This document shows positions 30,456-55,279 of a stretch of DNA of 64,000 nucleotides, one piece after another. The stretch's first letter is position 1. Each line of letters starts with the position of its first letter. The notes under the pieces are model-generated. The model was not told where the DNA came from. It saw nothing but the letters and a program-made list of their open reading frames with translations, and made no database searches. The DNA comes from Ensifer adhaerens. GTDB taxonomy: Bacteria; Pseudomonadota; Alphaproteobacteria; Rhizobiales; Rhizobiaceae. The translations under genes and the position numbers were made by a program. The stretch spans positions 3,027,001-3,091,000 of the forward strand of contig NZ_CP118610.1 of NCBI RefSeq assembly GCF_028993555.1. Reading direction: 5' to 3'.

Positions 30456-33400
30456 ATGAACGATATGCTGAAGACGACGCCTGACTTTTCGACCGATGCC
30501 GCAGCCGCACTGCTGAAGGAGCACTACGGCCTCCAAGGCGCGCTGTCGCTGCTTGCCAGCGAACGCGACCAGAATTTCAAGGTCGAGACCAAGGGCGATG
30601 GCACCTACATCCTGAAGATCATCAATGGTGCCGAACCCGAAGCCGAAAGCGATTTCCAGACGGCGCTGCTCGGCCACGTCGGCACCCACGCCGCCGATCT
30701 GCCGGTGCCGCATATCCGCCCAACGCTATCAGGCGCGAGCCTCGCTTCGACCACGAGTGCGCGTGGCGTCACCCATCGCCTGCGGCTCGTCAGCTGGGTC
30801 GAGGGCCTGCCACTCGCCGAAACCGGACGCAGCGACGCGGCCCTTCAGTCGCTCGGGCACATGCTCGGCCGCTTCGACGCCTCGCTCAAAGGATTCATGC
30901 ATCCGGGCGCGCTGCGCGATCTCGACTGGGACATCCGCCATGCCGGCCGTTCGGCCGACCGCCTGCATCACGTCGCCGCTGCCGAAGACCGCGCGCTGCT
31001 CGAGCGCTTCCTCGCCCGCTTCGAAACATCAGTCGCACCGCGGCTTGCAACCCTTCGCGCCGCCGTCATCCACAACGACGCCAACGACTGGAACGTGCTG
31101 GTCGCCAAGGCCGACCACGACCAGATCTCTGGATTGATCGACTTCGGCGACGCGCTGCATGCGCCTATCATTGCCGAAGTGGCGATTGCCGCCGCCTATG
31201 CCGGGCTCGATCATCCCGATCCGATCGGCGCTGCCGCCGTGATCGCCCGCGGCTTCCATGCCGAGTATCCGCTGACGGAAGAGGAGATCGACCTCCTGTT
31301 CGATCTCATCGCCATGCGGCTTGTGACGTCGGTCACCATTTCGGCCTCACGCCGCGCCCACACCGACGACAATCCCTATCTCGCGATCAGTGAGCGGCCA
31401 GCCTGGACGCTGCTGCGCAAGCTCGACCGGATGAACCCGCGTTTCGCCACCGCCATCCTGCGCAAGGCCTGCGGCTTCGAGGCGACCCCCGGCGCCCGCA
31501 AGGTCGCCGCCTGGATCGGCGCCAACCGCAAGTCGCTGAAGCCGCTGCTCGAACGCCCGGCCGCCACCTACCCGGCAGCGCTGGTGCCCTATGGCGACCC
31601 CACCCATCCGATGACGGTGAAATCGGCTGGCGAACAGCCGGACGAAGCTCAGGCGATCTGGGAAGACTATTGCCGTGAGCGCGGCATCGAACTCGGCATC
31701 GGCCCCTTCGGTGAAGAACGCACCGTCTATGCCGGCGAGATGTTCGTCTCCCGTTTTATCGACCACACCCGCCGCACCCGCCATCTCGGCCTCGACCTGT
31801 TCATGGCTGCCGGCACCAGGCTCTACACTCCCCTAGCCGCCACCGTCGTCAGTGTCGAGATCGAAAAGGATCCGCTCGGTTATGGCTGCCTGATCGCGCT
31901 TCGCCATGAGCCCGAGGGCTGCCCGCCCTTCGTCACGCTGTGGGGCCACATGGCGCATGAAGCGATGGACCGCATCCAGGCCGGCGACCGACTGGAGGCC
32001 GGCGCGCTCGTCGGCGAGATGGGGGCGCCTAAGGAAAATGGCGGCTGGGCGCCGCATCTGCATCTGCAGCTTTCGACCGACACCACTCTTTCGGCAACCG
32101 AAATCCTTGGCGTCGGCGAGCCGCAATTTCTCGACGTCTGGGCCGAGCTCTTCCCGGATGCCCGCACCTTCGCCGGCATCGCGGAGGAATTCTACGAGAA
32201 GAAGGGCCGCTCGCACGAGGAAATCGTTAAACGGCGCAAGGAATTGTTGCTGCCGAACCTCTCGATCTCCTACGACAAGCCGATCAAGTTCGTGCGCGGC
32301 GAAGGCGTCTGGCTGATCGACGACAGCGGCCGCGCCTATCTCGACTGCTTCAACAATGTCTGCCACATCGGCCACGCCCATCCGGCGGTGGTCGAGGCGA
32401 TGGCCAAGCAGGCCGCGATCCTCAACACCAACACCCGCTATCTGCACGACAACATCGTCGCCTATGCCGAGCGGCTGACCGCGACGCTGCCGAAGGAGCT
32501 GACGGTCGCCGGCTTCGTCAACAGCGGCTCGGAGGCCAACAGCCTGGCACTCCGGCTGATGCGCGCCCATACCGGCCGCGAAAACGCCATCACGCTCGAC
32601 TGGTCCTATCACGGCACGACGCAGGAGCTGATCGACATCAGCCCCTACAAGTTCCGCCGCAAGGGCGGCAAGGGACCGAAGCCGCATGTCCATGTGGCAA
32701 CCATTCCCGACAGCTACCACGCGCCGACGGACTGGCCGGCAGAGGAACACGGCAAGCGCTTCGCCGAAAGCGTCGCCGAACTGATCGCGGCGATGCAGGC
32801 CAAGGGCGAAGGTCCGGGCTTCTTCATCGCGGAATCGATCCCGAGCGTCGCCGGCCAGGTGTTCCTGCCGGAGGGCTATCTGAAGGAAGTCTATCGGCTC
32901 GTGCGCGAGGCGGGCGGCGTCTGCATCGCCGACGAGGTGCAGGTCGGCTTCGGCCGTGTCGGCAGCCATTGGTGGGCGTTCGAGACCCAAGGCGTCGTGC
33001 CGGACATCGTCACCATGGGCAAGCCGATCGGCGATGGCCATCCGTTGGCGGCCGTCGTTACGACCCGCGAGATCACAGACAGCTTCAACAACGGCATGGA
33101 GTATTTCAACACCTTCGGCGGCAATCCGGTTTCCTGCGCCGTCGGCCTTGCGGTGCTCGACGTGATCGAGGGACAGAATCTGCGCGGCAATGCGCTTACG
33201 ATCGGCAACTACCTGATGGACGCCTTCCGCGCCATGCAGGCCCGCTACGAGGTGATTGGCGACGTGCGTGGCATGGGCCTTTTCCTCGGCATCGAGCTTG
33301 TTGGCGACCGCAAGACCAAGGCGCCGGCAACCGAGTTCGCCCGGGCCGTCTCCAACGGCGCGCGGCGGCGGGGCGTCCTGATGGGCACCGAAGGTCCGCA

Positions 33401-33512
33401 TGACAACATCCTGAAAATGCGTCCGCCGATGATCTTCTCGAAACGCGATGCCGATCATCTGATCGCCGTGCTCGAAGAGACCTTCGCAGACGTGGCAAAG
33501 ACGCTCGGCTAG
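30456..33512 (+). CDS. three-domain fusion: small-molecule kinase, M23 peptidase fold, class-III PLP enzyme (copy 1)
   Basis: A 1018-residue protein in three parts. Residues about 25-300 are an aminoglycoside-phosphotransferase/hydroxylysine-kinase-like domain with catalytic HNDANDWN (206-213) and metal-binding DFGD (229-232). Residues about 420-545 are an M23 (LytM) fold with the zinc set intact: H443 and D447 in HLGLD, H498, and H534/H536 in HLHLQ. Residues about 590-1018 are a class-III aminotransferase fold with PLP lysine K856 and D826-E827. There is no signal peptide, so M23 would be cytoplasmic. Kinase plus class-III enzyme recalls the hydroxylysine kinase/phospho-lyase and ethanolamine-phosphate lyase pairs. 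I infer phosphorylation of an amino alcohol followed by PLP-dependent phospho-elimination. Confidence 0.85.
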
Positions 33513-41526: not shown

Positions 41527-42870
41527 ATGACCGAAATCAACAACGGCAAGGCGGCCGCCGAACTGACGGAGCTCGCCACCTTCGTCACGACAGATATCGC
41601 CGGCATCACCCGCGGCCGCAGCTTCGCAGCCTCCCAGATTGACGACTATCTGCGCAAGGGCGTGGGCTGGGTGCCGGCCAACCTGGCGCTGACGCCCTTC
41701 GACCTGATTGCCGAGAACAATCCATGGGGCTCGGCCGGCGACCTCCGGCTGATGGCGGATCCCGCCAGCAAGGCGCGCGTCACCTGCCTGCCCGATGAAA
41801 CGCCGCTGCATTTCTACCATTCCGATATCACCGACCTTCAGGGCAATGCCTGGGACTGCTGCGTGCGCAGCTTCCTGAAACAGACGCTGAAGGAGTACGA
41901 AAAGATCGGCCTCAAGGTTGTCTCGGCGGTCGAGCAGGAATTCCAGCTTCTCGGCGTCGACTGGCCGGACGCCCCCTCCTTCGGCCTGCGCGCTCAGCGT
42001 CGGGCCGAGCCCTTCGGCTCGCTTTTGATGACCGCGTTGCAGGAGGCGGATGCTGAACCGGAAATGTTCCTGCCGGAATACGGCAAGGACCAATTCGAAA
42101 TCACCTGCCGCCCGGCCGACGCGTTGACCGCCGCCGACCGCGGCGCCACGATCCGAGCGATCACCAAGGAAGTTGCAGCCCTCTTTGGCTGGAACGCGAG
42201 CTTCGCCCCGAAGACGGCGTCCAACGGCGTCGGCAACGGCGTGCATCTGCATGTGAGCTTCACCGATCTCGACGGCAATCCGGTGACCTTCGACGCCTCG
42301 CGCCCGGGCCGCCTGTCGAAGGTCGCTGGTTCCTTCGCCGCTGGCGTCATCAGGCATCTGCCGGCGCTGACCGCGTTCACCGCCCCGTCGGTGCTTTCCT
42401 ACATGCGGCTCGTGCCGCATCACTGGAGTGCCGCCTATACCTGCCTCGGCGAAAAGAACCGCGAAGCGACGCTCCGCATCTGCCCGACGCTGGACCTGCC
42501 GGGCAGCAATCCAGCCAAGCAGTTCAACATGGAGTATCGTGCCGCCGATGCCTGCGCCAGCCCGCATCTGTCGCTGGCGGTGCTGCTGAAGGCCGGCCTC
42601 GAAGGCATCAAGGCAGGGCTCGAACAGCCGCCGCTGATCAACTCCGACCCGTCCGATTTCTCGGATGAAGACCAGAAGAAGCTCGGCATCCGCCGCCTGC
42701 CTGCCAGCCTGCCGGAAGCACTCGATACGCTTGCCGCCGACCCTGTCGTTACCGGCTGGTTCTCCAAGGATTTCCTCGACTGCTACGTAGCGATGAAGCG
42801 CAAGGAGATCGAGATCGTTGAAGGGCTTTCCCCGGACGAACTCTGTGCCCGCTATGCGGCGGTCTATTGA
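41527..42870 (+). CDS. glutamine synthetase-family ligase (gamma-glutamyl-amine ligase type)
   Basis: A 447-residue member of the glutamine synthetase fold. Catalytic and metal residues look intact: E136 and E138 (EQEF), the EYGKDQFEIT segment, HLHVSF in place of the usual HxHQS, and the ATP/glutamate-binding NREATLRI. The short, diverged N-terminal beta-grasp region and lack of the adenylylation loop separate it from GlnA. Relatives such as PuuA join glutamate to amines rather than ammonia. Its place between two amidohydrolases and an aminotransferase supports a catabolic ligase role; the amine is unknown. Confidence 0.85.
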   Translation: MTEINNGKAAAELTELATFVTTDIAGITRGRSFAASQIDDYLRKGVGWVPANLALTPFDLIAENNPWGSAGDLRLMADPASKARVTCLPDETPLHFYHSDITDLQGNAWDCCVRSFLKQTLKEYEKIGLKVVSAVEQEFQLLGVDWPDAPSFGLRAQRRAEPFGSLLMTALQEADAEPEMFLPEYGKDQFEITCRPADALTAADRGATIRAITKEVAALFGWNASFAPKTASNGVGNGVHLHVSFTDLDGNPVTFDASRPGRLSKVAGSFAAGVIRHLPALTAFTAPSVLSYMRLVPHHWSAAYTCLGEKNREATLRICPTLDLPGSNPAKQFNMEYRAADACASPHLSLAVLLKAGLEGIKAGLEQPPLINSDPSDFSDEDQKKLGIRRLPASLPEALDTLAADPVVTGWFSKDFLDCYVAMKRKEIEIVEGLSPDELCARYAAVY

Positions 42871-42888
42871 TTGACGGATGGGCAGCCC

Positions 42889-43710
42889 ATGACCTCGACA
42901 ACGGCCATCAAGAGCCCCGAACACGGCGTGCGACCTGACCCGAGCGCGCCGCTGCTTGCGATCGACGAACTGCCGCCTTATGCGGTCTTCAACCCGGACG
43001 GCGCCTCGCCGATCCTGCTCCTGTGCGAGCATGCGTCCAACCGCATGCCGCGCGCACTCGGCGACATGGGCCTGCCGCTTCACGAGCGCCAGCGCCACAT
43101 CGCCTGGGATATCGGCGCCATGGCGCTCGCCCAGCGCTTGAGCGTCAGCCTCGACGCGCCGCTGTTCTTCACCAACTATTCGCGCCTGGTGATCGACTGC
43201 AACCGGCCACTGGCCGCACCCTCGATGATCCCCGAGATCAGCGAGACGACGGAGATCCCAGCCAATCGCAATCTGAGCGACGCCGAGCGGCAGCAGCGGA
43301 TCGACACGCTGTTTAGGCCATACGCTGATGCCGTCACCCGCCGGCTCGACCGGCTGGAAGGCGAAGGAAAACGACCCTTCGTCGTCGGCATCCATAGCTT
43401 CACGCCTGTCTATTTCGGCAAGCCGCGTCCCTGGCAGGCTGGCATTCTCTACCGCGATGCGGTTGGCTTTGCCCATTCGCTGATCCGCGAACTTTCGAGC
43501 GAGCCGCAGCTGACGATCGGCGACAACGAGCCTTACAACATCCATCCGGACGAGGATTACACCGTGCCCGTCCACGCCGACGCGCGCGGACTTCCCGGGG
43601 TTCTGGTCGAGGTGCGGCACGATCTGATCGACACCGATGCGGGCGTCGCCGTCTGGGGCGAGCGGCTCACCCGGTGTCTTAAAGCCAGCATCGGGGAGCA
43701 AGAGTTGTGA
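42889..43710 (+). CDS. N-formylglutamate amidohydrolase-like protein (FGase family)
   Basis: A 273-residue protein of the N-formylglutamate amidohydrolase fold, recognised by LLLCEHASNRMP near the N-terminus, the DCNRPLAAPSMIP loop, GIHSFTPVYFG and the C-terminal LVEVRHDLID. The ATG at 42889 follows GGATGGG; an upstream TTG is in frame. It resembles the predicted FGase subgroup rather than well-studied HutG. It could hydrolyse N-formylglutamate made by HutF 6 kb away, or an N-acyl/gamma-glutamyl product of the preceding ligase; position favours the latter. Its stop overlaps the aminotransferase start (GTGA). Confidence 0.8.
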   Translation: MTSTTAIKSPEHGVRPDPSAPLLAIDELPPYAVFNPDGASPILLLCEHASNRMPRALGDMGLPLHERQRHIAWDIGAMALAQRLSVSLDAPLFFTNYSRLVIDCNRPLAAPSMIPEISETTEIPANRNLSDAERQQRIDTLFRPYADAVTRRLDRLEGEGKRPFVVGIHSFTPVYFGKPRPWQAGILYRDAVGFAHSLIRELSSEPQLTIGDNEPYNIHPDEDYTVPVHADARGLPGVLVEVRHDLIDTDAGVAVWGERLTRCLKASIGEQEL

Positions 43711-45017
43711 CCACGCTCTACGAAAGAGACAGGGCGGCGATCGCGAACCTGCAGAAACTGCGCTTCTTCCCGCTCGCCGTGACCGGGGGCCGGGGTGCCA
43801 GGCTTGTAGAGGAGAATGGCCGTGAACTGATCGACCTATCCGGCGCCTGGGGTGCGGCAAGCCTCGGCTATGGCCACCCCACGCTTGTCGAGGCGATCTC
43901 CGGCGCTGCGGCAAATCCGGCCGGCGCCAGCGTACTCTCTGCCGCCAATGGACCGGCGACGGCGCTTGCCGAAAAACTGCTCGCAGCGTTTCCGGGCTCA
44001 GGCGACAACAGGGTCTGGTTCGGCCATTCCGGATCCGACGCCAACGAGGCCGCATTCCGCGCCGTCACGAAAGCGACGGGACGGTCGGGCGTCATCGCCT
44101 TTGTCGGCGCCTACCACGGCTGCACCACCGGCTCGATGGCCTTCTCCGGCCACAGCGTCCAGGCGGATGCTACCAAGGCCGAAGGTCTGCTGCTGCTCCC
44201 CTACCCTGATCCATTCCGCCCTTACCGCGACGACCCGACGGGCGGCACAATCCTCGCCGAGTTGCGAGCGCGCCTCGAAGCGGCACCGGACCATTTCGCC
44301 GTCGCCTTCATCGAGCCGATCCAGTCCGATGGCGGCCTGATCGTCCCGCCGCCCGACTTCTTCCGCGCGTTTGCCGAAATCTGCCGTCAATACGGCGTGC
44401 TCGTCGTCTGCGACGAGGTGAAGGTCGGGCTCGGCCGCAGCGGTCGGCTGCATTGCTTCGAGCACGAGGATTTCGTTCCTGACATCCTGACCATCGGCAA
44501 GGGGCTCGGCGGCGGACTGCCGCTCTCTGCCGTGATCGGTCCGTCGTGCATATTGGATTGCGCCAGCGCCTTTGCCATGCAGACGCTACACGGCAATCCA
44601 ATCTCCGCCGCCGCCGGGCTGGCGGTCCTCGATGCCATCGAGCGTGAGCAACTCTCGCAGGAGGCGGAACGCAAGGGCCAACGGTTACGTCAGGGCTTGC
44701 AGCGCCTCGCCGAGCGCCATCGCCTGATTGGCGACGTTCGCGGGCGCGGCCTTGCCTGCGGTGTCGAACTCGTCACCGACCATGAGAACCGGACGCCGGC
44801 GTCGCGTGAAACGGCCAAGCTCATCTACCGCGCCTATGAACTCGGGCTCGTCCTCTATTATGTCGGGATGAATTCGAACGTGCTGGAGATGACCCCGCCG
44901 CTGACGATCACCGACGCGGACATAGACGCAGCGCTCGAAATCCTGGACCGGGCCTTCGACGACGTGATCGGCGGTCGCGTTTCTGACGCCGTGCTCGCGG
45001 ATTTCGCCGGCTGGTAG
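43707..45017 (+). CDS. class-III PLP-dependent aminotransferase
   Basis: A 436-residue fold-I aminotransferase. PLP lysine K265 lies in IGKGLGGGLP, D236-E237 binds the cofactor ring (CDEVKVG), and SGSDANEAAFRA with GAYHGCTTGSM forms the phosphate-binding region. It belongs to the omega/4-aminobutyrate aminotransferase group, which uses terminal amines. The GTG start overlaps the preceding stop by four bases. It is the last gene of the rpiR-hydrolase-ligase-FGase-aminotransferase run and ends at a palindrome shared with the convergent fusion gene. Substrate unknown. Confidence 0.9.
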   Translation: MTTLYERDRAAIANLQKLRFFPLAVTGGRGARLVEENGRELIDLSGAWGAASLGYGHPTLVEAISGAAANPAGASVLSAANGPATALAEKLLAAFPGSGDNRVWFGHSGSDANEAAFRAVTKATGRSGVIAFVGAYHGCTTGSMAFSGHSVQADATKAEGLLLLPYPDPFRPYRDDPTGGTILAELRARLEAAPDHFAVAFIEPIQSDGGLIVPPPDFFRAFAEICRQYGVLVVCDEVKVGLGRSGRLHCFEHEDFVPDILTIGKGLGGGLPLSAVIGPSCILDCASAFAMQTLHGNPISAAAGLAVLDAIEREQLSQEAERKGQRLRQGLQRLAERHRLIGDVRGRGLACGVELVTDHENRTPASRETAKLIYRAYELGLVLYYVGMNSNVLEMTPPLTITDADIDAALEILDRAFDDVIGGRVSDAVLADFAGW

Positions 45018-45051: not shown

Positions 45052-47976
45052 TTACCAGCCTTCCTCCAGCGCGCGGCCCAGCATGTCGGCAAAGAAGTCG
45101 GCGCTCTCCTTGCTGAGGCAGAGCGGCGGCTTGATCTTCAGGATATTCAGATGGTCGCCGGTCGGCTGCATGATGACGCCGAGATCGAGCAGGCGATCGC
45201 AGATCGCCGCCGTCTCTTCCGTGGCCGGTAACAGGGTTTCCCGGTCGCGCACGAATTCGACACCGAGATAAAGCCCCATGCCGTGCACAGCGCCGATCAG
45301 CGGGAAACGTTGTCCGAGCGCTTCGAGGCGGGCTTTCAAGTAGCCGCCGACGACGCGCGCATTTTCGGGAAGCCGCTCTTCCGTCAGGATGTCGAGCACG
45401 GTCTGGCCGACGACGGAACTGACGGGGCTGCCGCCGGCGGACGAGAAGAAGTACCCCTCCTTCTCCAGCGCATCGGCGATTTCGCGGCGGGTGATGACGG
45501 CGCCGAGCGGATGTCCGTTGCCCATGCCCTTGGCGACGGTGATGATGTCAGGCACGACGCCCTGCTCTTCGAAGCCCCAGAAATAGTCGCCGAGGCGGCC
45601 ATACCCGACCTGCACCTCATCGGCGATGCACACGCCGCCGCGGGCTCGCACCATGGCATAGACGGCGTCGAGATAGCCTTTCGGCAAGGGGATGCCGCCG
45701 GCATTGCCGTAGACGGGCTCGCAGATGAACCCGGCAAGCTTCTCGTCCGCAGCGTCCAGCTCGGCAAGCTTCGTGACGACGGAGCGGACATAGCTGTCTG
45801 TCGTATCGGCGCCACGGAACTCGCCGCGATAGGTGTTGGGGGCCGGCACCGGATGCACCCAGGCCGGGCGGGTTTCAAGCGCCTGCGGATTGTCGGCGAT
45901 CGAAGTGGAGACCGCATCGCTGGCGACGGTCCAGCCATGATAGGCCTCGAGCAGGCTCACGACGTTGCGGGCGCCGGAATGGGCCCAGGCGAGCCTGAGC
46001 GCCAGATCGTTGGCCTCCGAGCCGCTATTGACCAGGAACACCGTGTCGAGCCCTTCGGGCGCAAGCGCCGCCAGCCGCGTCGAGAATTCGGCGACGGAGG
46101 CGTAGTGGAAGCGTGAATTGGTGTTGAGCAGCGACCATTGCCGCCCGACGGCAGACGCCAGCCGAGGATGCCCATGGCCGAGGATGGTCACGTTATTGAC
46201 CATGTCGAGATAGCTGCGACCCTCCACGTCGAAGAGATATTCCTTCCATCCACGCTCGATCTGCGGTGGTTTCAGGTAGTAGTTCTTCTGCGGCTTGGCG
46301 AAGTGCTGCTGTCGTCGGGTTAGCAACGCTTCGCTGTGCAGTTCCGGCGCATCGCATTCGAAGCCGAGGACGCCGGCCGGTGACGGGCACAGCGCCTTCC
46401 ACGACTCCGCCTGATGCGGCATCACGAAGAGCGGCGGAACGAGGCCGTGCTCGCGGCAAAGCTGGACACGAATCAGACCATAGGACTGCTGCTCGCCGGA
46501 GACGACACCGAGTACCGCGCCATCAGCCGCGGTCTCCCCGAGATCGCCAGCGACCGAGACACCTTCAAGGAAGAGGCTCGCCTCGGCTCCCTCCAGAACC
46601 AGCAGCCCATCCTGCCGCAGGATGCGCCCCGCAAACGGGGCATTGATCTCGCGGCCCGCTTCCAGGCAGATGTCGACATGCAGCGCCAGCGTCGCGTCGG
46701 GCTTCGGCGATCGCAGTTGCGTCTCGGTCATGCGGTATTCGCCGTAGCGGGTGGTCGCGACACCGATCGCATGGGCGGCGTGCTGCAGCACGGAAATCGG
46801 CAGGCCCTGATGCTGCCAGCGTTCCTCCGGCAACAGCGGGCTGAGGATCGAGAGGTCGATCTGGCGCACGTCGGTCGGTCCGATCCCCTGGATGAGGCTA
46901 TCTCCGGCCACCGGCTGCGATACGGGCGCGAGCGCCACCGCCGCCAGAATGGCGTGCTCCATCAGCACCGGCGGAACCGAGGTCGCGACGTCGAAGATCT
47001 CCCGCTCGTGCGCAGCGTTGCCCTCGACGTAAGTGTTGCCGCGCTCGCGGGAAAGTTGATGCTCGGAGCTCGCCACCAGCACGGCGGCGCGGGCGACGAT
47101 CAGCGGCCAGAGCGCCTTCAGCTCCACCTCGGTCAGCGGGCACGCGGCGTGAAACGCCTTGACCGCCGGCAGGATGAACCAGGGGTCGCCATCAGCATGA
47201 TGCAGCAAAGAGGCGCAGGTCACGGCAAGTTCGGCGACCAGCCACCCCTTGAGGATATCGCCGAAATCGATGACGCCGTCCGGGATCGGCCGGCCGGCCG
47301 CATCCGGTTGGCTCACCACGTTGTCGTCGGTGACATCATGATGGATCGCCTGAATGCGCAAATCCGGTATCAAGGGCTGCAAACGCCGCATGGCGCCGAC
47401 CATGATCTCGGCGATGCGCTTTTTGCGCTGCTGGTCCGCCATGTCGGTAAGAAGATGCAGCACGACGGGACCGGCGCGGCGCAGGTCCCATTGCAGTTCG
47501 CGTTCAAGCCCGGGATGCTCGAAGTCCTGCAGCGCCGCGGCGAGCCGCCCGGCCAGTGCGCCGAGCGCGGCAACCGCTTCCCGCGAGAGATGCTTGCGCC
47601 GGGTCAGCGGCTCGCCATCGAGGAAACTCAGCAGACGGATCCGGTAGTCCTGATCGCGAACCGTGACGCTCTCGATCGCCTCGCCCTTGAGCGAAGGCAC
47701 GACTTCCGCAACACGCGCCGAAGTCAGGCGCTCGGAAAGATGCCCCAAGGCAGCATTCTGGGCCTCCAATTCGAGCGCCCCATACTCCGCACGGCAGATC
47801 TTCAGCACGTAGCGTCGCTCGCCGGTATCGATGCGATAATTGCGATCCTGCTGGCTGCCGAGTTCGTTGATCGTGCCTGAGAGACCGTAATGCTCGGCCA
47901 GCAACACCCGCGCCTCATCGGCACTGACATCGGGCCTGGGCAGCTCGGTGCGAAGCTTCAGCGCGTCCTCAACCAT
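45052..47976 (-). CDS. three-domain fusion: small-molecule kinase, degenerate M23 fold, class-III PLP enzyme (copy 2)
   Basis: A 974-residue paralogue of the fusion at 30.5 kb. The kinase part (about residues 20-310) keeps HHDVTDDN (212-219) and DFGD (237-240). The PLP part (about 560-974) keeps K816 (TVAKGMGNG) and D786-E787. The middle M23-like part (about 420-515) has lost its metal site: aligned with copy 1, the first histidine is A431 and HLHLQL becomes LIRVQL (501-506); only D435 remains. So here the M23 fold cannot be a zinc peptidase and may be structural or ligand-binding. It is convergent with the aminotransferase; no regulator is directly adjacent, hutC being 100 bases upstream on the same strand side. 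Confidence 0.85.
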   Translation of the reverse strand: MVEDALKLRTELPRPDVSADEARVLLAEHYGLSGTINELGSQQDRNYRIDTGERRYVLKICRAEYGALELEAQNAALGHLSERLTSARVAEVVPSLKGEAIESVTVRDQDYRIRLLSFLDGEPLTRRKHLSREAVAALGALAGRLAAALQDFEHPGLERELQWDLRRAGPVVLHLLTDMADQQRKKRIAEIMVGAMRRLQPLIPDLRIQAIHHDVTDDNVVSQPDAAGRPIPDGVIDFGDILKGWLVAELAVTCASLLHHADGDPWFILPAVKAFHAACPLTEVELKALWPLIVARAAVLVASSEHQLSRERGNTYVEGNAAHEREIFDVATSVPPVLMEHAILAAVALAPVSQPVAGDSLIQGIGPTDVRQIDLSILSPLLPEERWQHQGLPISVLQHAAHAIGVATTRYGEYRMTETQLRSPKPDATLALHVDICLEAGREINAPFAGRILRQDGLLVLEGAEASLFLEGVSVAGDLGETAADGAVLGVVSGEQQSYGLIRVQLCREHGLVPPLFVMPHQAESWKALCPSPAGVLGFECDAPELHSEALLTRRQQHFAKPQKNYYLKPPQIERGWKEYLFDVEGRSYLDMVNNVTILGHGHPRLASAVGRQWSLLNTNSRFHYASVAEFSTRLAALAPEGLDTVFLVNSGSEANDLALRLAWAHSGARNVVSLLEAYHGWTVASDAVSTSIADNPQALETRPAWVHPVPAPNTYRGEFRGADTTDSYVRSVVTKLAELDAADEKLAGFICEPVYGNAGGIPLPKGYLDAVYAMVRARGGVCIADEVQVGYGRLGDYFWGFEEQGVVPDIITVAKGMGNGHPLGAVITRREIADALEKEGYFFSSAGGSPVSSVVGQTVLDILTEERLPENARVVGGYLKARLEALGQRFPLIGAVHGMGLYLGVEFVRDRETLLPATEETAAICDRLLDLGVIMQPTGDHLNILKIKPPLCLSKESADFFADMLGRALEEGW

Positions 47977-48089: not shown

Positions 48090-48833
48090 CTACTGCGACA
48101 TGCCCTCAAGGCGATAGCGCGTGCCGGGATAGAGCAGCCGCGCGGTCGTCACATTGGCCGTCTCCGACCAGGTGCGGCGCCGGATCATCAGGCAGGGTTC
48201 GTTGCGGTCAATTCCGAGCAGCTTGCATTCCCACGGCTGCGGCGACACCGCCTCGACGATCTGCTCGGTGCGCGTGATCGGCGCGACCGCAGTGAGATAG
48301 GCATTCGGCGTCATCGCCTGGAAATCCTGCTCCAGATAACGCGGGCAGATTGCCGAATTGACGAAACGGTCCTCGATCTGGATCGGCAGGCCGTTTTCCG
48401 AATGCACCATGATCGAATGGAAGACGCGCGCGCCGGTGGCAAGGCCGAGTGCGTAGCCGATCTCCGGCGTAGCCACCTCTTCCTGCAGAAGCGTCATTAA
48501 CGACGTGTGCGTATGGCCGCGCTCGTGAATCTCGTCAGCGATGTTGCGGACTTCCAGAAGTGCGGTGCTGCCCTTGTGGGCGGCCACGAAGGAGCCGACG
48601 CCCTGCACCCGCGTGATTGCACCCTCGGTCGCCAGTTCCCTGAGCGCCCGGTTGGCAGTCATGCGGCTGACGCCGAGGTCGGCGACGATCTCGTTTTCCG
48701 AGGGGATGCGGTGATGGGCCGGCCACTCACCGCTCTCGATGCGGCTGCGGATGAACTGTTTGACCGCTTCGTAGCGCGGCACCGGACCATCCTCGAAGCC
48801 GGCCGTATCGTTCCGTTTTCTGAGTGCCGTCAT
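48090..48833 (-). CDS. hutC: GntR/HutC-family transcriptional repressor
   Basis: A 247-residue regulator. An N-terminal GntR winged helix (about residues 18-82; RIPSENEIVADLGVSRMTANRALRELATEGAITRVQGVGSFVA) precedes a UTRA effector domain (about 95-240). In hut systems HutC is released by urocanate. It is divergent from hutF, which heads the transporter operon. The start ATG 48833 is used; a TTG one codon earlier is possible. With no intact histidine ammonia-lyase or urocanase in the window, the source of its inducer here is open. Confidence 0.9.
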   Translation of the reverse strand: MTALRKRNDTAGFEDGPVPRYEAVKQFIRSRIESGEWPAHHRIPSENEIVADLGVSRMTANRALRELATEGAITRVQGVGSFVAAHKGSTALLEVRNIADEIHERGHTHTSLMTLLQEEVATPEIGYALGLATGARVFHSIMVHSENGLPIQIEDRFVNSAICPRYLEQDFQAMTPNAYLTAVAPITRTEQIVEAVSPQPWECKLLGIDRNEPCLMIRRRTWSETANVTTARLLYPGTRYRLEGMSQ

Positions 48834-48950: not shown

Positions 48951-48969
48951 TACGTACAGGAAAATGCAC

Positions 48970-50343
48970 ATGGCAACTTTTCCCGTCAACCGGATCTTTG
49001 CAGAACGGGCGCTCCTGCCCGGCGGCTGGGCCCAAAACGTCGCGATAACGCTCGATGCGTCCGGGCGGATTGCAGCGATCGAAACCGGCAGCAGCGCCGC
49101 CAATGGCGAGCGCGCGGTTGGACCGCTGATTCCGGCAATGGCCAATCTGCACTCCCATGCCTTCCAGCGCGCCATGGCCGGCCTTGCCGAAGTGGCCGGC
49201 AGCGGCGACGACAGCTTCTGGACCTGGCGCGAGGAAATGTATCGCACCGTCGGCCTTGTAACCCCTGACGATGTCGAGGCGATCGCCGCCAAGCTCTATA
49301 TGGAGATGCTGAAGGGCGGTTTTGGCCACGTGGCCGAATTTCACTATCTGCACCATCAGGCCGACGGCACGCCCTATACTGACCCGGCCGAGATGTCGCT
49401 GCGTATTCTCGCCGCTGCCCGCACCACCGGCATCGGCCTCACGCACCTTCCGGTTTTCTACGCCCACGCCAATTTCGGTGGTGTCGCGCCAAATCCGGGC
49501 CAACGGCCGTTCCTGCATGATCCGGATCGGTTCCTCGCCCTCCTCCAGCGTCTCGAGCCGCTTTGCCGCGAGGCCGACCACACGCTCGGCTACGCCATCC
49601 ATTCGCTGCGCGCAGCAACGCCCGAGGAAATGCGCACGATCCTTGAGGCAGCGCCCGTCGCCGGTCCGATTCACATCCACGTCGCCGAGCAGACCAAGGA
49701 AGTCGACGACAGCCTCGCTTGGAGCGGCCGCCGCCCGGTCGAATGGCTGCTTGACGAAATGCCGGTCGATCAGCGCTGGTGCGCCATCCACGCCACGCAT
49801 CTGACGGAAAGCGAACGGCAGCGCCTGGCACGTTCCGGCGCCGTCGCCGGTCTCTGCCCAGCGACCGAAGCCAATCTCGGCGACGGCATCTTCCCGGCAG
49901 TCGACTTCATGGCCGAAGGCGGCACCTTCGGCATCGGCACCGACAGCCACGTGGCGACCAGCGTTGCAGAGGAACTGCGCCTGCTCGAATATGGCCAGCG
50001 GCTGCGGGACCGCCGCCGCAACCGGCTTGCCACCGGGCCGGGCGCCTCGATCGGCCGGACCATCTTCGACGCAGCGCTCAAGGGCGGCGCCCAGGCGGCG
50101 GGCCAGAAGACCGCGGGCATCACCGTCGGCGCACGCGCCGATTTCGTCGTGCTCGACGGCGGCAATCCCTATATCGCCGCCGCCACTGACAACCAGATCC
50201 TCGACCGTTGGCTTTTTGCACTCGGCGGCGAGAGCGTTCGCGACGTGATGGTCGCGGGCGAGTGGAAGATCCGGAACGGACGCCACGACCGGGAGGAAGA
50301 AATCGACCGCGCCTTCGCGCGGGTGCTGATGAAACTCAAATAG
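48970..50343 (+). CDS. hutF: formimidoylglutamate deiminase
   Basis: HutF converts N-formimidoyl-L-glutamate to N-formyl-L-glutamate and ammonia, the fourth step of the five-step histidine pathway. The 457-residue amidohydrolase has the metal motif HSH at 61-63 (NLHSHAFQRAM), HIHVAEQTKEV, HATHLTE and the metal aspartate in GTDSHV, all typical of HutF. The ATG at 48970 has AGGA eight bases upstream; another ATG at 48964 is too close to it. It is divergent from hutC and heads the hutF-X-W-V-H-D run. Confidence 0.92.
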   Translation: MATFPVNRIFAERALLPGGWAQNVAITLDASGRIAAIETGSSAANGERAVGPLIPAMANLHSHAFQRAMAGLAEVAGSGDDSFWTWREEMYRTVGLVTPDDVEAIAAKLYMEMLKGGFGHVAEFHYLHHQADGTPYTDPAEMSLRILAAARTTGIGLTHLPVFYAHANFGGVAPNPGQRPFLHDPDRFLALLQRLEPLCREADHTLGYAIHSLRAATPEEMRTILEAAPVAGPIHIHVAEQTKEVDDSLAWSGRRPVEWLLDEMPVDQRWCAIHATHLTESERQRLARSGAVAGLCPATEANLGDGIFPAVDFMAEGGTFGIGTDSHVATSVAEELRLLEYGQRLRDRRRNRLATGPGASIGRTIFDAALKGGAQAAGQKTAGITVGARADFVVLDGGNPYIAAATDNQILDRWLFALGGESVRDVMVAGEWKIRNGRHDREEEIDRAFARVLMKLK

Positions 50344-50378: not shown

Positions 50379-51413
50379 ATGTCGATCAACAAACTGAAAC
50401 TCACGCTTGCGGCCACAGGCCTGGTGCTTGCCGCCTCCACCGGCAGCGCCAGCGCCTCCTATTGCGGTGATGGCAAGACCGTCACCTTCGCCGGCATCGA
50501 TTGGGAGAGCGGCGCCTTCATCACTGAAGTGATGAAGACCATCCTTTCCAAGGGCTACGATTGCCAGGTTGATTCGATCCCCGGCAACTCGGTGACGCTG
50601 GAGCAGGCAACGGCCAACAACGACGTGCAGATCTTTGCCGAGGAATGGCTGGGCCGCTCCGATATCTGGAACAAGGCCGTCGAGGAAAAGAAGGTCGTCG
50701 CCGTCGGCAAGACCTTCGTCGGCGCAAGCGAAGGCTGGTTCGTGCCGGAATACGTCATCAAGGGTGACGCCAGCCGCAACATCGAGGCCAAAGCCCCGGA
50801 CCTGAAGAGCGTGTCGCAGCTTTCCGACCCCAAGATCGTCGAACTCTTCGCCGACCCGGAAGAGCCGGCCAAGGGCCGTTTCCTCAATTGCCCGTCGGGC
50901 TGGACCTGCGAGGGTGTCAGCTCCGCCAAGCTCGAAGCCTACAAGCTCGGCGAGACCTACGTGAACTTCCGCCCAGGCACCGGCACGGCGCTCGATTCCG
51001 CCATCACGTCCGCCTATCTCCAGGGCGAGCCGATCCTCTTCTATTACTGGTCGCCGACCGCCATCATGGGCAAGTTCAAGCTCGTTCAGCTCGAGGAGCC
51101 GGCCTACAACGAAGCCTGCTGGAAGGAGCTTTCGAGCGCGACCGGCAAGCGCGATCAAGGCTGCGCCTTCCCGTCGGTCGACGTCTCCTATGGCCTCAAC
51201 AGCACATTTGCGCAGGAGGCGCCCGAGATTGTCGCCATCCTCGAAAAGGCGACCTTCCCGCTCGACGCTGTCAATGGCAGCCTTGCCTACATGGCCGACA
51301 ACAAGGTCGACGCGACGGCTGCTGCCGCCGAGTTCCTGAAGACCAAGGCCGATGTCTGGGGCAAGTGGGTTTCCGATGAAGCCCGTGGCAAGATCGAAGC
51401 CAGCCTGAAGTAA
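50379..51413 (+). CDS. hutX: histidine/betaine ABC transporter substrate-binding protein
   Basis: A 344-residue periplasmic binding protein of the OpuAC/ProX type, with a signal peptide (about residues 1-27, ending SASA). The mature part starts YCGDGKTVTFAGIDWESGAFITEVM. Aromatic residues expected to form the betaine cage are present (for example W43 in GIDWESG and the YYWSP segment). In S. meliloti the related HutXWV system takes up histidine, proline and betaines. It lies 35 bases after hutF and is followed by a GC-rich hairpin before hutW. Confidence 0.9.
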   Translation: MSINKLKLTLAATGLVLAASTGSASASYCGDGKTVTFAGIDWESGAFITEVMKTILSKGYDCQVDSIPGNSVTLEQATANNDVQIFAEEWLGRSDIWNKAVEEKKVVAVGKTFVGASEGWFVPEYVIKGDASRNIEAKAPDLKSVSQLSDPKIVELFADPEEPAKGRFLNCPSGWTCEGVSSAKLEAYKLGETYVNFRPGTGTALDSAITSAYLQGEPILFYYWSPTAIMGKFKLVQLEEPAYNEACWKELSSATGKRDQGCAFPSVDVSYGLNSTFAQEAPEIVAILEKATFPLDAVNGSLAYMADNKVDATAAAAEFLKTKADVWGKWVSDEARGKIEASLK

Positions 51414-51549: not shown

Positions 51550-52407
51550 ATGTTTCCGGATTCTCTCAATCTCTCCATCCGTGGGCCGGTGAACGACTTC
51601 ATCCAGGCGCTGGTCAGCGGCTATGGATGGGTCTTCAAGGCGATCAGCGGTGTTATCCTGAAAGCCGTTCTGTTCATCGAATGGATCCTGCGTGGCCTGC
51701 CCTGGTGGGTCGTCATCCTCATTTTCATGGCGCTCGCCTGGCAGAGTTCCAAGCGCTGGACCCTGACGGTCGCCGTCGGCGTTCTGCTGTTCTTCGTCGG
51801 CGTGCTCGGCCTCTGGGACCTGACGATGCAGACGCTGGCCCTGATGCTGATGGCAACCATTGTCTCTGTCGTCATCGGCGTACCCATGGGCATCCTCGTC
51901 GCAAAGAGTAGGGTGATGCGCAACATCACGCTCCCGGTGCTCGACGTCATGCAGACCATGCCGAGCTTCGTCTACCTGATCCCGGCGCTCATGCTCTTCG
52001 GCCTCGGCAAGGTTCCGGCGATCCTCGCCACCATCATCTACGCCGTGCCGCCGCTCATTCGCCTCACCGATCTCGGCATCCGCCAGGTCGACCACGAGGT
52101 GGTGGAAGCGGCGACAGCCTTTGGCGGCAGCCCCAACCAGATCCTCTTCGGCGTCGAGCTGCCGCTCGCGACCCCGACGATCATGGCCGGCCTCAACCAG
52201 ACGATCATGATGGCGCTGTCGATGGTGGTCGTCGCCTCGATGATCGGCGCCCGCGGCCTCGGCGAGCAGGTGCTGAACGGCATCCAGACGCTCGACGTCG
52301 GCAAGGGGCTCGAAGCCGGCATCGGCATCGTCATTCTCGCGATCGTTCTCGACCGCATCACGCAAGGCTTCGGCAAGAGCCGGACGGAGGATCCCCGCAA
52401 TGGCTGA
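51550..52407 (+). CDS. hutW: histidine/betaine ABC transporter permease
   Basis: A 285-residue inner-membrane permease of the ProW/OpuAB class, with about six to seven helices and a conserved EAA-like loop (GVELPLATPTIMAGLNQTIMMALSMVVVASMIGARGLGE). The N-terminal amphipathic segment (NDFIQALVSGYGWVFKAISG) matches ProW relatives. It starts at ATG 51550 and overlaps hutV by eight bases. The 136-base gap after hutX contains a stem (CCGGGCTCCGCC with a G-rich partner) that may limit transcription into the membrane genes. Confidence 0.92.
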   Translation: MFPDSLNLSIRGPVNDFIQALVSGYGWVFKAISGVILKAVLFIEWILRGLPWWVVILIFMALAWQSSKRWTLTVAVGVLLFFVGVLGLWDLTMQTLALMLMATIVSVVIGVPMGILVAKSRVMRNITLPVLDVMQTMPSFVYLIPALMLFGLGKVPAILATIIYAVPPLIRLTDLGIRQVDHEVVEAATAFGGSPNQILFGVELPLATPTIMAGLNQTIMMALSMVVVASMIGARGLGEQVLNGIQTLDVGKGLEAGIGIVILAIVLDRITQGFGKSRTEDPRNG

Positions 52408-53227
52408 TATCGAGATCCGCAACGTCTACAAGATCTTCGGGCAGGACGCCAAAGCCGCACTCGCCATGGCCAAGGAGGGGCTCAACAAGTCCGAGATCCT
52501 CGCCCGCTCCGGCTGCAGCGTCGGCCTCAACAATGTCAGCCTGACGATCGGCGCCGGCAAGATCTTCGTGATCATGGGGCTTTCCGGTTCCGGCAAGTCG
52601 ACACTGGTGCGCCACATCAACCGGCTGATCGAACCGACGAGCGGCGAAGTGGCGTTCGACGGCAACAACATCTTGGACCTCGACGCCAAGGCGTTGCGCA
52701 CCTTCCGCATGCACCGCGTCAGCATGGTGTTCCAGAGCTTTGCCTTGATGCCACATCGCACGGTGCTGCAGAACGTCGTCTACGGCCAGCGCGTGCGCGG
52801 TCTTCCCAAGGCCGAAGCCCGCGACATCGGCATGAAGTGGATCGAGACCGTGGGTCTCGCCGGCTACGACGCCAAGTTTCCGCACCAGCTTTCCGGCGGC
52901 ATGAAGCAGCGCGTCGGCTTGGCTAGGGCACTCGCCGCCGATACCGACGTGATCCTGATGGACGAGGCCTTCTCGGCCCTCGACCCGCTGATCCGCGCTG
53001 ACATGCAGGACCAGTTGCTGCAACTGCAGCAGAACCTTGCAAAGACCATCGTCTTCATCACCCATGATCTCGGCGAGGCGCTGCGCATCGGTTCGGAGAT
53101 CGCCATCCTCAAGGATGGCCAGGTGGTGCAGGTCGGCACGCCGGACGATATTCTGGAGCGGCCGGCCAACGATTATGTTGCCCGCTTCGTGCAACGCCGC
53201 CAGGGACGACCGGAAGCCCATGACTGA
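52400..53227 (+). CDS. hutV: histidine/betaine ABC transporter ATP-binding protein
   Basis: A 275-residue ATPase of the ProV/OpuAA class. Walker A is GLSGSGKST, the signature LSGGMKQRVGLARAL, and Walker B VILMDEAFSALDP. The N-terminal IRNVYKIFGQDAKAALAMAKEGLNKSEIL is typical of the quaternary-amine transporter ATPases. It lacks the C-terminal CBS pair that makes ProV osmosensitive, which fits a nutrient-uptake rather than osmotic role. It overlaps both hutW and the HutH-like gene by eight bases. Confidence 0.93.
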   Translation: MADIEIRNVYKIFGQDAKAALAMAKEGLNKSEILARSGCSVGLNNVSLTIGAGKIFVIMGLSGSGKSTLVRHINRLIEPTSGEVAFDGNNILDLDAKALRTFRMHRVSMVFQSFALMPHRTVLQNVVYGQRVRGLPKAEARDIGMKWIETVGLAGYDAKFPHQLSGGMKQRVGLARALAADTDVILMDEAFSALDPLIRADMQDQLLQLQQNLAKTIVFITHDLGEALRIGSEIAILKDGQVVQVGTPDDILERPANDYVARFVQRRQGRPEAHD

Positions 53228-54701
53228 GAGCATAATACTTGACACACCACTGACGTGGCCGGAAATCGCGGCGGTCGCCAATGGCGCCCGCCTGACCCTT
53301 TCCGATACCGCCCGGCAACGCATCGTCAATGCCCGACGGATCGTCGATGCCCTGGTCGAGCGCGGCATCCGCGGTTACGGCATCAACACCGGCGTCGGCG
53401 CGCTGTGCGATGTCATCATCGACCGCAAGAACCAGCAGGCGCTGTCGCGCAACATCATCCTCAGCCACGCCTGTGGCGTCGGCGAGCCGCTTGCCCGGCC
53501 GGAAGCCCGGGCGGTGATGGCGGCCCAGATCGCCAACTTCGCCCATGGCTATTCCGGCGTGCGCATCGAAACGGTCGTGGCACTGCTGGCGCTGCTCAAT
53601 GCCGACCTCATCCCCGACATTCCCTCGCGCGGATCGGTCGGCTATCTGACCCATGCCGCGGCAATCGGCCTCGTACTGATCGGCCACGGAACGGTCGACG
53701 ACGGCAAGGGCAAGATCAGCGGTGCGGAAGCCCTCGCCCGCATCGACCTCAAGCCTTTGCAACTGGAGGCGAAGGAAGGGCTGAGCCTGGTCAACGGCAC
53801 GCCCTGCGCGACGGGACTTGCGGCCCTCGCTCTGTCACGCGCGACCCGCCTCTTCGACTGGGCGGATGCGGCGGCCGCCATGACCTACGAAAACCTCGGC
53901 AGCCAGGCCAACGCCTTTGCCGCCGTCCCGCTGGCGCTTCGCCGCTCCAAGGGGCTTGAAGACGTTGGGGCATCGCTGCGCGCCTATCTCGCCGAAAGCC
54001 CGATGCTTGCCGAGACTGCCGGCACGCGCACGCAGGACCCCTTGAGCCTTCGCGCCGTGCCGCATGTGCATGGCGCCGCCCGCGATGCGCTGGCCCAAGT
54101 TGCCGAAGTCGTCGACCGGGAGCTTGCAAGCCTCACCGACAACCCCGCCGTATCCGGCACACCAGATGCGCCGGAAGTCCACTCACAGGCCCACGCGGTG
54201 GGTGCTGCCCTCGGCCTTGCCATGGATAGCCTTTCGGTCGCCGTTGCCGAGGTCGCCGCCATTTCCGAACGCCGTATCGACCGGCTGGTCAACCCGCTGG
54301 TCAGCGGTCTGCCGGCCTTCCTTGCCGGCGACAGCGGCGTCTCCTCCGGCTTCATGATCGCGCAGTACACCGCTGCCTCTCTTGCCGCTGAAAACCGGCG
54401 TCTGGCGGCACCCGCGAGCCTCGACGGCGGCATCACCTCGGCGCTGCAGGAGGATATCCTCACCCACGCGACGCCGGCCGCCTGGAAGGCGCTGTCGATC
54501 GCCGACAATCTCGAAACGATCCTATCGATCGAACTGCTCGCCGCATCGCAGGCCTATGACCTGCAGCCACGCGGCCGCGCGGAGCGCACCGACGCGCTCT
54601 ACCGGCGCATCCGCGCAGCTATCCCGACCTATGCCGACGACCGGCCACTGAACGGCGACTTTGCGCGCATGCGCGCAATCATCGAAGAGAACCTGCCATG
54701 A
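53220..54701 (+). CDS. histidine ammonia-lyase-like protein lacking the MIO-forming Ala-Ser-Gly
   Basis: A 493-residue protein with the aromatic ammonia-lyase fold: GYGINTGVG with Y53, SHACGVGEP with H83, NGTPCATG with N192, SERRIDRLVNP (349-359) and QED with E411. In characterised lyases the motif GSVGASGDLAPLAH gives the MIO electrophile by cyclisation of ASG. Here it reads GSVGYLTHAA (138-147): the seven residues ASGDLAP are replaced by one Tyr. The QDxYSxR motif is QDPLSLR, and SGGNFHG is HSQAHAVG. It is thus unlikely to be a conventional histidase. It overlaps hutV (eight bases) and HutD (four bases), so it is part of the transporter operon. Usually annotated hutH. Confidence 0.85.
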   Translation: MTESIILDTPLTWPEIAAVANGARLTLSDTARQRIVNARRIVDALVERGIRGYGINTGVGALCDVIIDRKNQQALSRNIILSHACGVGEPLARPEARAVMAAQIANFAHGYSGVRIETVVALLALLNADLIPDIPSRGSVGYLTHAAAIGLVLIGHGTVDDGKGKISGAEALARIDLKPLQLEAKEGLSLVNGTPCATGLAALALSRATRLFDWADAAAAMTYENLGSQANAFAAVPLALRRSKGLEDVGASLRAYLAESPMLAETAGTRTQDPLSLRAVPHVHGAARDALAQVAEVVDRELASLTDNPAVSGTPDAPEVHSQAHAVGAALGLAMDSLSVAVAEVAAISERRIDRLVNPLVSGLPAFLAGDSGVSSGFMIAQYTAASLAAENRRLAAPASLDGGITSALQEDILTHATPAAWKALSIADNLETILSIELLAASQAYDLQPRGRAERTDALYRRIRAAIPTYADDRPLNGDFARMRAIIEENLP

Positions 54702-55279
54702 AGATCCTGCGCGCGAAAAACTACAAGCGCATGCCGTGGAAGAACGGCGGCGGCGAGACCGTGGAGATCGCCGTTTTCCCGGAAAAAGCGTCGCTCGGCG
54801 ATTTCGACTGGCGTGTGAGCATGGCGACGGTGGCCACAGACGGCCCCTTCTCCAGTTTCCCCGGCATCGACCGCACGCTCTCGATCCTGCAGGGCAAGGG
54901 CATGCGGCTGATGATCGATGGGCGCGAACCTGTGGTGATGACCGGAGAAACACCGCCGCTCCCCTTCCCCGCCGACGTCGCGACCTCGGCGACGCTGGTC
55001 GACGGTCCGATCGTCGACCTCAACGTCATGACACGGCGCGGCCGCCTTGCTCACTCGGTCCAGCGTCTGGCGATCGACCGTCCGCAAACAGTGGAAGGCT
55101 CGGCAGGAACGACCCTCGTCCTTTGTCATGGCGGCGCGGTGCGCCTGTCCGCGGCAGAAGCCACGGCCGACCTCGCAACGGGCGACACGGCAGTCCTTGG
55201 AGGCCCAGCCACCATCACGATCGAACCGGCGGCCTCTGCCGTTCTGTTCGTGATTACCATCGACAAGCCGGCCGCCTGA
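54698..55279 (+). CDS. hutD: HutD family protein
   Basis: A 193-residue bicupin-fold protein of the HutD/Ves family (PF05962), recognised by MKILRAKNYKRMPWKNGGGETVEIAVFP and the SSFPGIDRTLSILQGKGM stretch. HutD has no proven enzyme activity; in Pseudomonas it has been proposed to limit hut expression, perhaps by binding formylglutamate. The ATG overlaps the preceding stop (ATGA), so it is translated with the HutH-like protein. It ends the operon, 20 bases from the convergent GNAT gene. Confidence 0.9.
   Translation: MKILRAKNYKRMPWKNGGGETVEIAVFPEKASLGDFDWRVSMATVATDGPFSSFPGIDRTLSILQGKGMRLMIDGREPVVMTGETPPLPFPADVATSATLVDGPIVDLNVMTRRGRLAHSVQRLAIDRPQTVEGSAGTTLVLCHGGAVRLSAAEATADLATGDTAVLGGPATITIEPAASAVLFVITIDKPAA

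Follow-up and report, generated by a model that had tools for sequence, protein, structure and literature searches.

A histidine ammonia-lyase homologue without the MIO cofactor in a hut operon of Ensifer adhaerens, a predicted hercynine trimethylamine-lyase

We examined a 64,000-nucleotide stretch of the Ensifer adhaerens genome (contig NZ_CP118610.1, positions 3,027,001 to 3,091,000; hereafter the window) in which a histidine utilisation (hut) locus contains a gene of the histidine ammonia-lyase (HAL, HutH) family that has lost the residues forming the 4-methylideneimidazol-5-one (MIO) cofactor. Genes of this type in soil bacteria are usually annotated as histidine ammonia-lyase. We conclude that the window gene probably encodes an active, MIO-free lyase that converts hercynine (N,N,N-trimethyl-L-histidine, or histidine betaine) to urocanate and trimethylamine, and we predict that its clade is a distinct branch of a known kind of MIO-free lyase with a new substrate. 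A precedent is ergothionase, which PMC13405746 describes as lacking MIO and converting ergothioneine to trimethylamine and thiourocanate. With that precedent, an apparently dead enzyme becomes a probable trimethylamine lyase. No description of a hercynine (histidine betaine) trimethylamine-lyase was found in the open-access literature searched, although most subscription journals lie outside that coverage and a prior description is possible.

Results

The MIO motif is lost from an intact and conserved gene

The open reading frame (Table 1) runs without a break from an ATG at 53220 to a stop codon at 54699-54701 and encodes 493 amino acids. The 3' end of hutV overlaps its start by 8 bp, and the start of hutD overlaps its end by 4 bp. 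A longer version beginning at a TTG at 53037 was judged unlikely, as the added stretch falls entirely inside hutV. The product is a full-length member of the Lyase_aromatic family (PF00221, 489.9 bits) that scores below both NCBIfam cut-offs for HutH (TIGR01225, 453.1 vs. 539.15; NF006871, 467.7 vs. 524), and its best match in the PDB is 7tqr (284 bits). Alignment and a structure search with the predicted fold both identify a HAL fold without MIO; in the predicted model the confidence score (predicted local distance difference test, pLDDT) falls below 50 in the loop 402-411, which holds Glu411.

The Ala-Ser-Gly triad that gives rise to MIO is absent from the window lyase, which reads GSVGYLTHAAAIG at this site and is three codons shorter there. 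Re-reading of the codons and alignment with HutH bore out the first-pass annotation of this DNA in its description of an intact frame, of GSVGYLTHAA and of the loss of MIO, as well as of the altered motifs QDPLSLR and HSQAHAVG. That annotation had also described ASGDLAP as replaced by a single tyrosine. A tyrosine does occupy the position of the MIO residue Ala142, but alignment with the genome's own canonical HutH gives a substitution of Ala142 by Tyr together with a net deletion of three residues. Equivalents of HAL Tyr53, His83, Asn195, Gln277, Arg283 and Glu414 are all retained. Across 44 aligned rows of the clade, Tyr142, Tyr53, His83, Gln272, Arg278, Tyr383 and Glu411 are invariant, while Asn192 and Leu275 each vary once, so that leucine stands at the HAL Tyr280 position in 43 of the 44; these rows comprise 40 sequences dereplicated at 82% and four added ones, three are near-identical (L166-L168), and the counts are not independent. 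Locus L113, left out of the first set for column counts, is included in the 44 rows, and the distant GSVGYI group (L170-L172) is excluded.

Of 199 genomes from the family, 31, that of the window included, have close homologues (456-1036 bits, the next matches scoring at most 282), and each of these carriers has at least two matches. A class-wide search returned matches at E <= 1e-90 in 8 of 289 genomes, again counting the window's own, and outside the family the distribution is patchy. Scanning named genomes yielded 578 stretches that code for a relative, and 80 loci were retained from these; carriers include Ensifer, Sinorhizobium (S. meliloti 4H41 and S. medicae), Agrobacterium, Rhizobium, Shinella, Tistrella, Kaistia, Paraburkholderia and Caballeronia, among others. 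The clade has two main subgroups, with the motif pairs GSVGYLTHAA/QDPLSLR and GSAGYLTHNAH/QDALSLR. A more distant group (L187, L188 and L189) is about 50% identical, has GSVGYI[VT]HGAH and QDALSIR, and is without hut neighbours; a conserved gene of 265-266 amino acids lies near the lyase on the opposite strand.

Compared with five close Ensifer orthologues, the window gene has nonsynonymous divergence (dN) of 0.037-0.046 and synonymous divergence (dS) of 0.47-0.56; for one of them, L034, dN is about one-twelfth of dS (0.041 and 0.502). Since dN lies far below dS, the gene is under purifying selection, and this and its overlaps with hutV and hutD agree with the earlier view that it is maintained within the operon. 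A sequencing error, offered at that stage as grounds for refutation, was rejected along with gene decay, because the motif is kept across genera (a homologue in 31 of the 199 genomes, Tyr142 in every clade row) and the gene is under selection.

Relation to HutH and to other MIO-less members

The window genome has three PF00221 genes: the window lyase, a canonical HutH and a third gene that also lacks MIO. The canonical gene carries GSVGASGDLAPLAH and sits in a hutI-hutH-hutG run followed by hutU. MIO-type HutH is the nearest overall sequence to the window lyase (41% identity to the genome's own copy), with which it shares the Lyase_aromatic fold, the histidine-binding residues and the linkage to hut genes; it differs in having the MIO triad and Tyr280. 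The third gene has GSMGCADIGLM at the MIO site, and its best solved relative is the ergothionase of Treponema denticola (187.6 bits). It lies in an ergothioneine-utilisation cluster in which four NCBIfam models exceed their cut-offs (in brackets): thiourocanate hydratase, 1055.5 bits (930); thiohydantoin desulfurase, 606.8 (440); ErtD, 801.2 (600); and ErtE, 602.8 (520). This cluster therefore supplies a precedent within the same genome for an MIO-less HAL placed with the matching urocanase-type enzyme. Both urocanase-type genes of the genome lie outside the window.

T. denticola ergothionase (PDB 6s7j/6s7q) resembles the window lyase in its HAL fold without MIO and in the leucine at the HAL Tyr280 position, which is found in all 12 other MIO-less rows, ergothionase included. 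However, the MIO loop is GEGDITT in ergothionase and GYLTHAA in the window lyase, and ergothionase has serine where the window clade, like HutH, has Asn192. The two also differ at ergothionase Lys383 (numbered from our alignment), which we take to be a catalytic residue: lysine is present in 11 of the 12 other MIO-less rows, whereas tyrosine (Tyr383) is present in all 44 clade rows. Further MIO-less HALs, in L134, L136, L138-L141 and L143-L147, have GCAD, GCGD, GAGD, GAAD, GQAD or GEAD at the MIO site, and all have Leu280. Our table of HAL relatives has 183 rows, which include close relatives and overlapping loci and are not independent counts.

In a tree of 62 rows, the window clade (support 99/91), the MIO group (97/87) and the other MIO-less rows (100/100) each fall on one side of a branch. 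A second tree, from which the trait columns were removed and to which tyrosine-lyase-like MIO rows were added, gave the same three groups with weak support for the window clade (88/68) and the MIO group (89/72); the GSVGYI group (L170-L172) is absent from this tree. The window lyase belongs to a clade of its own, a point that the first-pass annotation had raised. Both trees are unrooted, with the three groups meeting at one node and long branches flagged, and they are compatible with MIO having been lost once, lost twice or gained; a single loss shared with the ergothionases is neither shown nor excluded by them.

Gene neighbourhoods link the lyase to urocanate degradation

Neighbourhoods were compared at 98 loci (79 named and 19 of clade B; L102 was dropped because the gene was not called), which include close relatives and overlapping loci, so that the counts are not independent. 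Within 10 kb of the lyase, hut genes are present at 93 of these loci and hutC at 85. The first-pass annotation had raised the idea of a gene always found beside hutXWV and hutD. A HutXWV cassette does lie upstream of the lyase at 49 loci, but a different transporter, a polar-amino-acid cassette, takes that place at 21. A canonical MIO HutH shares a run with the lyase at 21 of the 98, and at several Agrobacterium and Shinella loci the hut genes are limited to hutC-XWV-lyase. Among six further loci, two are in hut operons and a third has, at most 4 kb from the lyase, a gene with 63% identity to HutU. Six urocanases from loci with the lyase were tested, and every one is a true HutU and not a thiourocanate hydratase.

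S. meliloti 4H41 (L054) has the gene order of the window, hutC-hutF-hutXWV-lyase. PMC5596199 names an S. meliloti operon SMc00669-SMc00674, and its reference list cites the transporter of this locus under a title that mentions uptake of histidine, betaine and proline. We infer from the numbering and order of the genes that SMc00669 is the window-type lyase gene.

Nearly all carrier genomes tested have a canonical MIO-type HutH, a point that the first-pass annotation had also raised. In 30 carriers, hand-picked from 80 to include odd cases, a full-length match of at least 597 bits, in the score range of MIO HutH, was found in 28, and the six of these that were fetched all have the motif GASGDL[AS]P. 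In P. heleia the match is a fragment at a contig end. In Pseudogemmobacter humi the lyase lies in a full hut operon and there is no match to an MIO-type HutH, whereas 12 of 12 congeners score at least 592 bits and all 10 fetched have the motif; an assembly gap may lie behind the missing gene. Since the lyase replaces HutH in this operon, a working operon would have to obtain its urocanate through this gene, whether the source is hercynine or histidine.

Table 1. Features of the hut locus in the window, with the ergothioneine cluster elsewhere in the genome.
Feature	Position	Strand	Remarks
hutC, histidine utilisation repressor	48090..48833	-	294.7 bits, cut-off 220
hutF, formimidoylglutamate deiminase	48964..50343	+	713.4 bits, cut-off 413.05
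hutX, OpuAC-type betaine-binding protein	50379..51413	+	closest solved structure is that of a glycine betaine/proline binding protein (7yle)
hutW, permease	51550..52407	+	closest to choline/betaine permease models, below their cut-offs; start set by homology with L054
hutV, betaine/proline/choline-family ABC ATPase	52400..53227	+	342.7 bits, cut-off 326.6
MIO-less HAL-family lyase, predicted hercynine trimethylamine-lyase	53220..54701	+	corresponds in position to the final gene of the S. meliloti hutXWV locus
GSVGYLTHAA	53631..53660	+	replaces MIO motif GSVGASGDLAP, with Tyr142 aligned to the MIO residue Ala142
QDPLSLR	54033..54053	+	Leu275 replaces HAL Tyr280
HSQAHAVG	54180..54203	+	replaces SGGNFHAE
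hutD	54698..55279	+	PF05962, 191.3 bits
Ergothioneine-utilisation cluster with the third PF00221 gene, an MIO-less HAL	L133 (G000 C1:2475000-2494900)		outside the window

Other genes near the lyase

A fusion of an APH phosphotransferase and a class III aminotransferase (45052-47976, minus strand) adjoins hutC in the window, and a 1018 amino acid protein encoded at 30456-33512 (plus strand) has a similar-looking N-terminus. Just upstream of the hut locus (41527-45017, plus strand) are a glutamine-synthetase-like gene, which scores 271 bits against gamma-glutamylputrescine synthetase (cut-off 650), a gene of 273 amino acids for which no NCBIfam match was found, and an aminotransferase-like gene. 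In S. meliloti and relatives (L054, L055, L056 and L084) a 'Gate' nucleoside-recognition membrane protein is encoded between the lyase and hutD (Pfam on L054 only). In two lineages (L098:8792-9583 and L100:18147-18941) a HalD-like enzyme (Pfam) and a LysR-like gene are neighbours of the lyase or of its hut operon. Three loci outside a hut context (L065, L085 and L090) have a fatty-acid-desaturase-like gene beside the lyase, and L065 and L090 also have a phosphonate-type binding protein and a molybdenum-hydroxylase-like gene (Pfam on L065 only). Downstream of the lyase and HutU at L062 (11567-21478) lie an OpuAC-type binding protein, an ATP-binding cassette (ABC) transporter, two luciferase-like monooxygenases, an ornithine-cyclodeaminase-family protein and an MIO-less HAL, possibly an ergothioneine or hercynine cluster.

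Discussion

Lacking a lone pair, a quaternary nitrogen is unable to add to MIO, and it already leaves readily, so that for a betaine substrate the cofactor would be both unusable and unnecessary. A HAL without MIO that has the leucine of ergothionase, the histidine-binding residues, a linkage to true HutU and a transporter of the betaine family therefore points to hercynine, the betaine without sulphur, as the probable substrate. The reaction would be a 1,2-elimination on this quaternary amine to yield urocanate and trimethylamine. As in HAL, Tyr53 would take the beta proton. Glu411 (HAL Glu414) and His83 would hold the imidazole, and Tyr142 and Tyr383 may line the space freed by MIO, where they could contact the trimethylammonium group. 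HutXWV would import the betaine, and urocanate would pass onward via HutU, HutI, HutF and HutG.

Several points weigh against a hercynine lyase. The analysis shows the loss of MIO, the conserved residues, the clade, the gene linkage and a predicted fold, whereas activity, substrate, import and residue roles are inferred. The window clade does not join the ergothionases in either unrooted tree. Of HutX, HutW and HutV only HutV passes the cut-off of a named betaine or choline model, the other two falling below, and the clade B binding protein is closest to an octopine-binding and not a betaine-binding protein. No hut neighbour was found within 10 kb at 5 of the 98 loci (L065, L085, L090, L097 and L098), or nearby at three of the six further loci (one genus, with lyases about 50% identical). 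An N-methyl-L-tryptophan-oxidase-type gene is present at 8 of 19 clade B loci and at none of the 79 named loci; the one tested scores 316 bits (cut-off 257) and is shorter than the model as called. As to the fate of trimethylamine, a glnT-type gene and glutamate-synthase-like genes adjoin the lyase at three Agrobacterium loci, presumably encoding gamma-glutamylmethylamide synthesis and GlxBCD, respectively. Two of these also have soxB and soxD, and soxBD lie near the lyase at two clade B loci. However, this glnT/soxB link extends to only 5 of the 98 loci, in two lineages, and no GlnT/GmaS-type gene above cut-off was found in the window genome, so that use of trimethylamine there is unexplained. 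Finally, in the correlation between the lyase and ergothioneine genes kinship was handled only by counting genera: thiourocanate hydratase exceeds its cut-off in 13 of 31 carriers vs. 13 of 168 non-carriers (p=7e-6), in 8 of 20 carrier vs. 7 of 89 non-carrier genera (p=0.001) and, in a count covering only the 69 listed genomes of at least 5 Mb, in 12 of 24 carriers vs. 5 of 45 non-carriers (p=0.0008).

This enrichment of ergothioneine genes, the loss of MIO and the Leu280 common to the clade and the ergothionases would also suit an MIO-free lyase performing the same chemistry on another histidine derivative, such as ergothioneine, S-methylergothioneine, its sulfonate or N,N-dimethylhistidine, and other MIO-less HALs do lie about 9 kb downstream of the lyase in L062 and about 6 kb upstream in L113. 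We nevertheless consider this unlikely: the clade is a separate branch with tyrosine throughout the ergothionase lysine column, the urocanases tested at its loci are HutU and not thiourocanate hydratase, and the ergothioneine cluster of the window genome already supplies an ergothionase-like HAL.

The first-pass annotation had favoured a pseudo-lyase with a regulatory or binding role, and had listed a different catalytic role among its options. A paralogue without catalytic activity, whose role was to bind histidine or urocanate and to regulate HutH, uptake or HutC, would account for the loss of both MIO and Tyr280, which are important in HutH, and for a gene often in one run with a transporter and near hutC. 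Yet the rest of the active-site residues are retained in 43-44 of 44 rows, the change at Tyr280 is common to a proven MIO-free enzyme, the lyase is the only HAL in the P. humi operon of a genome in which no MIO-type HutH was found, and some cassettes consist of repressor, transporter and lyase with no other hut enzyme within 10 kb. A dead enzyme therefore seems to us decidedly improbable, and it is the different catalytic role that finds support. The P. humi operon, where the lyase occupies the place of HutH, could also reflect histidase activity, and the retained imidazole-binding residues would fit a true histidase with an MIO-independent mechanism. However, without MIO ammonia leaves poorly, an intact MIO HutH stands in the same run at 21 of the 98 loci, and with a full-length match in the MIO HutH range in 28 of 30 carriers a second histidase would be redundant; we regard this explanation as very improbable.

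If the window gene is indeed a hercynine trimethylamine-lyase, the betaine type of the 'histidine' transporter at this locus would be explained, and hercynine breakdown would feed the ordinary histidine pathway. We put at about even the chances of a wider proposal, in which hercynine trimethylamine-lyases make up a large branch of the HAL family that has gone unrecognised, rhizobia, agrobacteria and relatives of Burkholderia pass histidine betaine directly into the classical hut pathway (including through the S. meliloti gene that ends the hutXWV locus), and Leu280 is the mark of the MIO-free betaine lyases of this fold, of which several lack a known substrate. In that case many HAL-like genes, probably hundreds, would make trimethylamine from histidine betaine and not ammonia from histidine, and Leu280 would serve in genome annotation as a one-residue marker separating MIO-free from MIO-dependent members. 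The ergothioneine and hercynine of soil fungi and actinobacteria would then be tied to the nitrogen economy of root-nodule bacteria.
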